Origin: Gammaproteobacteria bacterium | Lineage (GTDB): Bacteria; Pseudomonadota; Gammaproteobacteria; Acidiferrobacterales; Sulfurifustaceae | Assembly (NCBI GenBank): GCA_016199745.1 | Contig: JACQFZ010000055.1 | Coordinates: 1-42,007 of the forward strand | Reading direction: 5' to 3' | Length of the DNA: 42,007 nt | Part shown: in pieces, positions 11,727-14,222 of the stretch | How the letters are laid out: the number at the start of each line of letters is the position of its first letter | How positions within the stretch are numbered: position 1 is the first letter of the stretch | Translations under genes and position numbers: made by a program | Notes under the pieces: model-generated | Told to the model about the DNA's origin: nothing | The model's input: only the letters and a program-made list of their open reading frames with translations | Databases searched by the model: none

Positions 11727-11990
11727 GTGCTTATTCTCACGCGCAGAATAAATGAAGCGATCAACATCGGTGATGACATTCAGATAACAGTGCTTGAGGT
11801 GAGGGCGAATCAAGTGCGGTTGGACATCAGCGCGCCGAAAGAGGTTCCAGTTCACCGCGAGGAAATCTTCGAGCGCATCAAAAAAGAGAAGGAAGCCGGC
11901 GTATCTCCTCGATTGCGTCGTGGTTCGTGCGGAGATACGGCTAGCGGACAACAAGTGACCCAATCGAAATTACAGTTGACGCGGCGTTAA
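11727..11990 (+). CDS. csrA: Carbon storage regulator CsrA (long C-terminal tail)
   Basis: An 87-residue CsrA/RsmA post-transcriptional regulator. It starts with GTG; AAAGGAG lies 9 bases upstream. The core (1-55) matches the family throughout: [41 protein letters not shown]. The RNA-contact residues L4 and R44 are both present, so it should bind GGA motifs in mRNA leaders as a dimer. The usual length is about 60-65; here an extra 25-residue basic tail ([15 protein letters not shown]..) follows. As the first gene of the CsrA/XRE cluster it may be an accessory paralogue rather than the housekeeping csrA, which normally sits near alaS. Confidence 0.93.
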
Positions 11991-12025: not shown

Positions 12026-12072
12026 TATTCGGCGCGATATTTCGAGGACGCTACGTTGCGATATTAGTAGAG

Positions 12073-12176
12073 CTTGATTCGGTCGTGTGCTGCACGGCGT
12101 ATGCCGTAAGCGACTTAAGGGAGTAGCTCAGACCGTTAAAAACAAGAAGATCACGGCAGCGCACGACCGAATCAAG
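12073..12176 (+). repeat. 21-bp inverted repeat enclosing a small hairpin (candidate structured RNA)
   Basis: The arm 12073-12093 (CTTGATTCGGTCGTGTGCTG plus C) is the reverse complement of 12156-12176 except at one position, which would form a G-U pair in RNA. Between the arms a perfect hairpin, ACGGC-GTAT-GCCGT, occupies 12094-12107, and a GGGAG lies at 12119-12123. The whole would fold into a 104-base structure. It stands between csrA and an XRE gene. It may be a small RNA, a leader element or a mobile-element end; sequence alone does not decide. Confidence 0.6.
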
Positions 12177-12217
12177 AGCAAAAAATGGCGTAAGACACAA
12201 TTAGAGGGGCCCATCAA

Positions 12218-12574
12218 ATGTCGCCAATGAAATCGTCGTCAGCGGAGGGAAGTATGGTGGTGAATAGAAACACGACGAGGCGAAGCGATCGAAGCGAACG
12301 CAACGCCAAGAACCATCCGCTACGGCGCCAACTCGCCGATCGGCTGCGGCTACTACGCAAAGTCCGTAAGTGGTCGCAAGGGCAGGTCGCAGACGCGAGC
12401 GGATTGCATCGAACCTACATCAGCCTGGTAGAACGTGGGCGATGCAATATTAGCCTAGACAATCTTGAGCGGCTCGCCGATGCGTTCGGTATTGGAGCCG
12501 CGGACTTGATAGGTCCTGACGACTCCACGTCGTCGGCGGATGGCACAGCGCCGTGCCTCCTGTATGGACGATGA
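12218..12574 (+). CDS. XRE-family transcriptional regulator
   Basis: A 118-residue DNA-binding protein. A basic N-terminal stretch (about 1-40) leads to a Cro/C1-type helix-turn-helix (about 42-100): RQLADRLRLLRKVRKWSQGQVADASGLHRTYISLVERG, then NISLDNLERLADAFGI. The recognition segment SGLHRTYISLVERG is repeated almost exactly in the protein at 13746 and in the decayed copy at 12973-13193. The start could also be a later ATG (12227 or 12254). The tandem CsrA gene follows 54 bases on and may be co-transcribed. XRE regulators of this kind often control the element that carries them. Confidence 0.88.
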   Translation: MSPMKSSSAEGSMVVNRNTTRRSDRSERNAKNHPLRRQLADRLRLLRKVRKWSQGQVADASGLHRTYISLVERGRCNISLDNLERLADAFGIGAADLIGPDDSTSSADGTAPCLLYGR

Positions 12575-12628
12575 GAGCGATCACCCGGCGATCCATCTCT
12601 GAAAATTCAAAAGGAAGGAATGACCACG

Positions 12629-12961
12629 ATGCTCATTTATACGAGGCGTGCCGGCCAAATTCTAACCATTGGCAACCACCTTGTCATTACGGTGCTTACC
12701 GTTGAAAGCGATCACGTGCGTATGTGCATCGATCTAGACAATACCTTCCAATTCATTTTTTCTAGCCGTGTGGGTCAGACCTTGAACATTGATGGCGACA
12801 TATCGGTCACAGTGCTAGTGAGTAAGGACGGTCACACTCGCCTTGGCGTCGATGTCGCCATAAATACACCGGTTTACCAGGAAGAGATTCAAAAGCTTAT
12901 TTCATGGAATGAAACCCGTCTGAATCTTAGTGACGACAACGCTGACCGGCTTTTTAATTGA
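12629..12961 (+). CDS. Tandem (single-chain) CsrA-like protein
   Basis: A 110-residue protein made of two CsrA-like halves. The ATG at 12629 is preferred over 12620: it gives the canonical beginning MLIYTRRAG and a 9-base spacing from AAGGAAGGA. Half one (1-40) covers strands 1-4 (MLIYTRRAGQILTIGNHLVITVL..DHVRMCI) and then runs directly into half two (about 41-92: FIFSSRVGQTLNIDGDISVTVL..HTRLGVDVAINTPVYQEEIQKLI). Key RNA-contact residues differ. L4 is Tyr in half one and Phe in half two, and the R44 equivalent is Gln (PVYQEEI versus PVHREEI). Half one lacks its own HREEI segment. It may be an altered-specificity RNA binder or a CsrA antagonist. Confidence 0.85.
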   Translation: MLIYTRRAGQILTIGNHLVITVLTVESDHVRMCIDLDNTFQFIFSSRVGQTLNIDGDISVTVLVSKDGHTRLGVDVAINTPVYQEEIQKLISWNETRLNLSDDNADRLFN

Positions 12962-12972
12962 GCAATAGCAGA

Positions 12973-13193
12973 TGACGGTATTGATCGATCACCCTCAGCG
13001 TCGTCGAGCTAGAAAACAAAGTCACCACCGCGAAAAAGAGCGGACTGCATCGTGCTTACATTAGTTTGGTGGAGTGGGCATCCCGCCGGGCCATAGAGCG
13101 CATGGTAAGCGAATACGTAGGTGAACTATTTTCCGTATCCCGACCAGCCGTCATTGGATTCAGAGAACGACGGGAAGGCACCTTCGTTCATTA
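12973..13193 (+). pseudogene. Decayed XRE-regulator copy
   Basis: An open piece ending at TAG 13191-13193 encodes AKKSGLHRAYISLVEWASRRA, matching the recognition helix of the neighbouring XRE proteins (ASGLHRTYISLVERG). In another frame just upstream, the ATG at 12973 begins MTVLIDHPQRR, echoing the NHPLRRQL of the gene at 12218, but this frame closes soon after. The middle of the domain is missing and the frame is broken, so it is a remnant of a third copy. Confidence 0.75.
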
Positions 13194-13745: not shown

Positions 13746-14222
13746 ATGTCAAAAACTACTACACTGCAAGACACCATTACCCTCGAACAAGCCGCACAAC
13801 GCTATGGTTTCCCCGTGCACTACTTACGAGGCCAGGCAAAGAAGGGCACTCTTTCTGCTCGGCAACAGTGGTTGACGACGCCACAAGCCATTGAGGCGCT
13901 TATTGCCAGTAATGCGCGGCGCCTCAATGGAAAAAACAAGAAAAAGAATAATGCGCGCCACCAATTAGCGAGCAAATTGCGGATACTACGAAGTGCGCGT
14001 GGTTGGGCGCAGGAAGATCTTTCTCAGGCCAGCGGATTACATCGAACGTATGTCAGTTTGGTCGAGCGCGCCGGCTGCAATGTCAGTTTAGACAACATCG
14101 AGCGCCTTGCCGATGCCTTAGCGGTCAGTCCGTCTGATCTGCTCAGTATCGATGGGAGCACAAACGGGCCTTCGGTATCGACGGCGACAAAACCCAAGGT
14201 TAACAAAACACGTAAGCGTTAG
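13746..14222 (+). CDS. Two-domain regulator: helix-turn-helix/excisionase-like plus XRE domain
   Basis: A 158-residue protein. Residues about 10-58 (TITLEQAAQRYGFPVHYLRGQAKKG..TTPQAIEALI) resemble a MerR/excisionase-type winged helix. A Lys/Asn-rich linker follows, then an XRE domain at about 72-132 with LRILRSARGWAQEDLSQASGLHRTYVSLVERAGCNVSLDNIERLADAL. The XRE part is a close paralogue of the gene at 12218. The tail is basic (KPKVNKTRKR). The ATG lies in a poor ribosome-site context (GCGAACCGATG). It is probably a DNA-binding controller of the local cluster. Confidence 0.82.
   Translation: MSKTTTLQDTITLEQAAQRYGFPVHYLRGQAKKGTLSARQQWLTTPQAIEALIASNARRLNGKNKKKNNARHQLASKLRILRSARGWAQEDLSQASGLHRTYVSLVERAGCNVSLDNIERLADALAVSPSDLLSIDGSTNGPSVSTATKPKVNKTRKR

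Follow-up and report, generated by a model that had tools for sequence, protein, structure and literature searches.

A tandem CsrA gene in a gammaproteobacterial genome: predicted fold, paralogues and a candidate single RNA face

CsrA is a small RNA-binding regulator that normally works as a dimer, and each of its RNA faces pairs strand 1 of one chain with strand 5 of the other (PMC7652899). The window analysed here, a stretch of 42,007 nucleotides that forms contig C55 of a 4.26 Mb Gammaproteobacteria genome in 72 contigs, holds a frame in which two CsrA units appear to follow one another in a single chain. This raises the question of whether such a fusion is a real gene, and of what becomes of the two RNA faces when both halves of the dimer are carried by one polypeptide.

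Family matches, frame and predicted fold

The protein passes the curated cut-off of the CsrA family in Pfam (PF02599), which it matches in two stretches (E 1.4e-16, 60.6 bits against a cut-off of 27), the best of them covering residues 1–36. The NCBIfam csrA equivalogs NF002469 and TIGR00202 also match in two stretches each, both under their curated cut-offs (62.2 versus 73 bits and 61.2 versus 70.1 bits). These double matches bear out the original prediction, made from the sequence, of one polypeptide with CsrA strands 1–4 followed by a second CsrA-like unit, and residues 41–92, assigned there to the second fold, do match CsrA. Its residue calls were likewise correct: unit 1 has Tyr4 and unit 2 a Phe at the corresponding position, Gln stands in place of R44 (residue 84, codon 12878–12880), and unit 1 lacks an HREEI segment. 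When each unit of this protein and of its two intact paralogues (see below) was aligned with a normal CsrA of the same genome, encoded on contig C13, none of 2000 residue shuffles aligned equally well.

The likely start codon is the ATG at 12629, which is preferred over an in-frame ATG at 12620 because the paralogue on contig C69 shares only the later ATG, the earlier codon being ACG there. Strands 1–5 plus a helix are not found in each unit, as unit 1 stops after strand 4. The helix inserted between strands 2 and 3 in proteins of the RsmN/RsmF type is absent from the sequence of both units, and the model of the tandem protein has no helix before residue 84. Features of the locus are collected in Table 1.

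Table 1 Features of the tandem CsrA gene and its surroundings in the window
Feature	Coordinates	Strand	Basis
Ordinary csrA, GTG start	11727–11990	+	Pfam 7.5e-25; NCBIfam above cut-off
Palindromic element between csrA and XRE gene	12056–12193	+	Inverted repeat; 84% identical copy at C69
XRE-type helix-turn-helix regulator gene, same cassette	12218–12574	+	Pfam HTH_31 1.6e-13; paralogues in C69 and C67 cassettes
Likely ribosome-binding site, AAAGGAAGGA	12610–12619	+	Contains two GGA triplets; read from sequence
Tandem CsrA gene	12629–12961	+	110 residues and stop; Pfam and NCBIfam matches, paralogues
Unit 1, CsrA strands 1–4, without strand 5 or helix	12629–12742	+	Pfam stretch 1–36; predicted strands
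Unit 1 strand 1, L-I-Y-T-R-R, kept half of RNA face	12632–12649	+	Thr5-Arg6-Arg7 in four of four copies
Three-residue turn D-N-T, unit 1 strand 4 to unit 2 strand 1	12737–12745	+	Modelled strands 29–36 and 40–47
Unit 2, CsrA strands 1–4, strand-5 segment, helix start	12746–12907	+	NCBIfam best stretch 43–96; model
Unit 2 strand 1, decayed, Thr-Arg-Arg to Ser-Ser-Arg	12746–12769	+	Sequence comparison of copies
Unit 2 strand-5 segment, V-Y-Q-E-E-I	12872–12889	+	Sequence; no strand there in model

Two monomer models were computed, a shallow first one from three aligned rows (mean pLDDT 76.7) and a deeper second one from 39 (mean pLDDT 82.0). Alignment A3 comprised 34 of the 52 CsrA found, the window's csrA, the second unit of a broken copy on contig C2 and the three tandem proteins; the CsrA motif picked none in three of 55 loci, which were dropped. 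In the second model, block mean pLDDT is 88–95 over residues 1–80, with strands at 2–7, 11–14, 18–25, 29–36, 40–47, 51–54, 58–66 and 69–75 and a helix at 84–103. Modelling of the 110-residue chain alone, a check that had been proposed with the original prediction, thus returned two confident CsrA-like units linked by a turn of three residues. The second model does not form the strand 5 of unit 2, residues 76–83 being coil there (block pLDDT 61), and the shallow model likewise lacks it.

Both units resemble truncated CsrA chains of solved structures. The second model superposes on one of them (5z38) over 36 columns at 0.8 Å, its residues 38–78 on such a chain over 41 residues at 1.3 Å (Z 4.3), and residues 1–37 of the first model on such a chain at 1.1 Å (Z 4.0). 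Whole-chain comparisons were poor: the top Foldseek match of both models was an unrelated S-layer domain (3u2g), neither model had a match under an E of 0.001, CsrA chains stood at ranks 2–8 for the second model, and the longer matches to CsrA chains had an rmsd of about 4 to 6.5 Å. The VIA-align rows of highest Z were unrelated proteins and were not counted as kinship. Some of this is to be expected in comparing a swapped dimer with single chains. The two CsrA-like units in the model and the three intact paralogues support the covalent pseudo-dimer that had been proposed, and we consider it likely. The fold of the two units is itself a prediction, and we infer the sandwich, the single face and the loss of bridging.

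Paralogues, gene neighbourhood and distribution

A PF02599 search of the window's own genome gave 17 matches at E up to 1, 15 of them above the family cut-off. Several ordinary CsrA are encoded in this genome, including the product of the gene ending at 11990, 638 bases ahead of the tandem frame, where the original prediction had placed it (about 640 bases upstream). There is a tandem paralogue on contig C69, 88% identical to the window's protein, and another on contig C67, about 39–40% identical. A fourth tandem gene, on contig C2 (L040 8500–8800), has a frame broken at two places, one near a run of six A, and sits directly upstream of a normal csrA. Net charge is −5 for the window's protein, −4 for that of C69 and +5 for that of C67.

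Three intact, diverged copies that share the fused frame on three contigs rule out an assembly or sequencing artefact, including the erroneous fusion of two genes that the original prediction had named as its alternative. The tandem genes of C55 and C69 differ by 19 synonymous and 13 nonsynonymous changes, a dN/dS of 0.17 overall and of 0.18, 0.13 and 0.35 in unit 1, unit 2 and the tail. The shortage of nonsynonymous change has a binomial p of 1e-5 with transition bias ignored, and residues 25–46, which run across the junction, show no amino-acid difference. As read from these substitutions, constraint is placed on at least one of the two genes, dN/dS being unable to tell which. Given the paralogues and the mostly synonymous change, the fusion is therefore taken to be a real gene, under selection in at least one of these two copies.

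The gene order csrA, XRE regulator, tandem gene is common to C55 and C69; on C67 it is tandem gene, csrA, XRE regulator. Eight XRE matches were found in the genome. Four share their cassette with a CsrA gene (C55 at 12218, C69, C67 and C22), the loci on C72, C17 and C48 showed no CsrA gene, and the eighth is the window's second XRE gene, at 13926, downstream of the tandem gene. Positions 13030–13080, also downstream of the tandem gene, resemble by eye a piece of an XRE regulator, perhaps a remnant. At C69, the csrA adjoins a gene for a Peptidase_S24 protein, a kind seen in phage repressors (L038 11847–12731), and contig C67, home of the third tandem gene, has a group II intron match close to its end (L039 12473–12550).

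Among relatives in the order, 15 genomes besides the window's own had an XRE match (E up to 1e-16). Taking one XRE locus per genome, a CsrA match was found in nine of 14 (E up to 0.05, the weakest being L110 at 0.02); one of the five negative loci, L105, is short and comes from a genome with seven more XRE matches. At C22 and at each of the nine positive loci the CsrA-like protein bears an insertion, and for that of L101 the best matches among solved structures were RsmF and RsmN (E 9e-6 and 1.1e-5). An XRE gene followed by a CsrA-like gene with the RsmN/RsmF-type insertion, separated by a few bases or in short overlap, was seen at L041 7054–7721 (C22), L100, L101, L103, L104 and L108. Judged from these sequences, the pairing of XRE and CsrA genes appears to be older than the tandem gene in this order.

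The palindromic element of the C55 cassette and its counterpart on C69 (L038 11203–11323) are predicted to fold strongly as RNA, with z-scores of −8.24 and −5.19, and an AAGGGAG stretch lies within the element. No third copy was found in the genome at the sensitivity of the search. An RNA role and a DNA role for this element are equally possible. Elsewhere, no Rfam family reached its gathering score in the window. Around the starts of the three tandem genes, predicted folding was no better than that of shuffles (z 0.27, −0.66 and −0.21), the same held for the C67 spacer (z −0.44), and promoter and terminator scans returned fewer sites than the shuffle mean.

The distribution of the fusion was examined with an alignment of the three tandem proteins, the window's own genome being counted in each sample. 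That genome was the only one with a full-length match among the order's 57 genomes (E up to 1e-13), among 398 sampled from the phylum (E up to 1e-13) and, among the matches listed, among 369 sampled from the class (E up to 1e-9); many of the genomes searched are incomplete drafts, and the genus is represented by one other member, 89% complete. Outside this genome, the best listed matches fall mostly in the second half of the model and score no more than 56 bits, against at least 179 for the tandem genes. In several class genomes, matches reach the first half of the model, most of them with internal stops, among the matches listed. Six places in the class and order samples with long open frames or long matches were examined, and each proved to be a single CsrA unit. 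In a scan of 120 sequences (119 loci and the window), frames with two full CsrA units were confined to this genome's three copies; L108 and L109 were split into two weak CsrA pieces owing to their insertion. A contig scan by two short peptide patterns, which favour close relatives, yielded two loci, of which L042 is a single CsrA and L043 matches residues 42–106 only, with no two-unit frame. The profile search for tandem CsrA proteins that had been suggested added two more intact examples from the same genome, and none of full length from the other genomes sampled, among the matches listed.

Mobile elements were also considered as a home for the gene, and this candidate was rejected: no relative was confirmed in IMG/VR viral contigs, among the matches listed. 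In the plasmid collection, two of 125 matching records covered at least 80% of the query among the matches listed, both from Legionella geestiana, and the one inspected has separate neighbouring csrA genes with no fusion. On a conjugative plasmid of this species, a row of csrA-like genes, one of them truncated, stands just before the trb genes (L044 3001–3684). The C67 protein reached 80% in none of 154 plasmid records, among the matches listed. In the phage collection, one of 49 records covered at least 80% of the query among the matches listed (Salmonella, H23), and its match spans 171 bases, room for one unit only.

Contact residues and the fate of the two faces

In CsrA, Thr5-Arg6-Arg7 fall inside essential region 1 (PMC4573307), L4 and R44 are critical (PMC7652899), and the R6–E46 salt bridge has been called indispensable (PMC6692469). 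Strand-1 and strand-5 residues are unevenly retained in the tandem genes. Over four copies, including the broken one on C2, Thr5-Arg6-Arg7 is retained at 12 of 12 places in unit 1 and has decayed to three of 12 in unit 2; over the three intact copies the counts are 9/9 and 3/9. With the near-duplicate C55 omitted they are 9/9 and 2/9 (Fisher p 0.002), a statistic that spans three lineages, one of them frame-broken. Thr5 and Arg6 are still present in the unit 2 of C67. In unit 2, the E46 place is kept in all four copies and the R44 place is Arg in C69, C67 and the broken C2 gene; the full strand-5 Arg-Glu-Glu is present in the C69 and C67 paralogues. Only the window's copy has Gln in place of Arg.

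We favour, at a probability of roughly 0.55, a CsrA pseudo-dimer in a single chain with only one of its two RNA faces kept, which would not bridge and would modulate ordinary CsrA. In each CsrA sheet, one chain supplies the three central strands and the other chain supplies strands 1 and 5 (PMC7652899); the strands lie in the order 5-2-3-4-1 (PMC3791407) and are antiparallel (PMC7366521). Unit 1 would contribute strands 1–4, and unit 2 strands 1–4, the strand-5 segment and the helix. With that order and direction, the three-residue turn from unit 1 strand 4 would lead straight into unit 2 strand 1, its antiparallel neighbour in the domain-swapped sheet, and little other change would therefore be needed. 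The sole complete face would combine strand 1 of unit 1 with strand 5 of unit 2. At the opposite face, strand 5 would be gone altogether and strand 1, from unit 2, decayed, so that one face should remain and the other be lost. Bridging of two sites on a single RNA by CsrA was demonstrated with dimers carrying R44A in one or both chains (PMC7652899). Unlike dimeric CsrA, a one-face protein would sit on single GGA sites without bridging two, and we hypothesize that it would thereby modulate or compete with ordinary CsrA in the cell, for instance the csrA product of the same cassette.

The original prediction of altered or lost RNA binding was thus too broad: loss fits the second face, but the half-site pattern indicates that the composite face is apparently kept. 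Its emphasis on R44 holds for this copy, but not for those of C69, C67 and C2. The change to Gln would probably weaken the kept face, which suggests that the window's protein may bind less well than the C69 protein; the latter, with Arg at the R44 place, would be the better candidate for the full predicted activity. Loss of this residue is not always fatal, as RsmN R62A, the R44 equivalent, still complemented some phenotypes (PMC3791407). Even the kept face differs from that of CsrA, with Tyr or Phe at L4, Tyr at H43 and a changed loop ahead of strand 5, and may bind differently. These three changes count against the one-face reading, as do the unformed strand 5 and the poor whole-chain matches of the model, the Thr5 and Arg6 of C67 unit 2, and the acidic character of the C55 and C69 proteins.

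Some of the same evidence can be read as a complete loss of RNA binding, leaving a CsrA-fold scaffold that acts by protein contacts, such as an open sheet edge, left by the missing strand 5, that is offered to CsrA or a different partner. The replacement of R44 by Gln here, the changed L4 of both units and the acidic C55 and C69 proteins would fit such a scaffold, and truncated CsrA occurs in a solved complex with the protein CesT (5z38). We nonetheless consider this unlikely, as C69 and C67 keep the Thr-Arg-Arg of unit 1 and the Arg-Glu-Glu of unit 2 while the partnerless places decay, an asymmetry of half-sites that would be unexpected were RNA contact irrelevant. That the window's copy arose by duplication of the C69 gene and is now decaying, with no separate function, seems to us improbable. 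In favour, no other copy has Gln in place of R44, and the C2 copy is frame-broken; against this, the frame of the window's copy is intact and its changes relative to C69 are mostly synonymous in both units, although this ratio does not tell on which branch constraint acted. The remaining arrangement, in which a pair of tandem chains exchange strands and so restore a CsrA-like dimer or a larger body with more faces, is the one we find hardest to credit. CsrA is naturally a swapped dimer and the monomer model is compatible with a higher assembly, but unit 1 lacks strand 5, so no assembly would pair every strand 1, and the strand 1 of unit 2 has lost all but three of its 12 Thr-Arg-Arg residues over the four copies.

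A bolder form of the one-face reading is that fusion and the discarding of a strand 5 produced a natural, selected one-face CsrA which, from within a csrA/XRE cassette, opposes bridging and occupies single GGA sites. We put this forward tentatively, as a possibility with the odds against it.

Relation to known CsrA proteins

The tandem protein is a variant of the CsrA kind. It shares with CsrA/RsmA/RsmE (PF02599) the sequence family, the strand order of each unit, the Thr-Arg-Arg of unit 1 and, in two tandem paralogues, the strand-5 Arg-Glu-Glu. It differs in having two units per chain, one strand-5 segment and one expected face, and in scoring below the NCBIfam csrA equivalog cut-offs. Like RsmN/RsmF of Pseudomonas aeruginosa (4kji, 4k59), it would be a CsrA fold whose chain is rewired while the arrangement of the RNA-reading sheets is preserved, but RsmN is a two-chain dimer with a helix inserted between strands 2 and 3 (PMC3791407), an insertion that the tandem protein lacks. 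RsmQ, a plasmid-borne CsrA homologue, offers another parallel as an extra CsrA-family protein proposed to interfere with that of its host; it homodimerises and heterodimerises, and the available text of that report describes no tandem form (PMC9928087). No tandem or fused CsrA was found in the openly accessible literature searched, and in one review of the CsrA family in Pseudomonas the words "tandem" and "fusion" do not occur.

A further likeness is to engineered dimers of CsrA in which one chain carries R44A (Mercante 2009, cited through PMC7652899), which have one working and one broken face. Those are two-chain laboratory constructs, whereas here a single chain would carry a second face decayed by evolution. 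The extent to which CsrA regulation needs two faces has been approached with such dimers engineered to carry one mutated face (PMC7652899), and a one-face chain would permit a direct comparison of one-face with two-face CsrA regulation. The tandem chain would further illustrate how a simple turn from strand 4 to strand 1 can convert a swapped dimer into a single polypeptide. If one face is indeed kept, the tandem gene is a natural test of why CsrA needs two.
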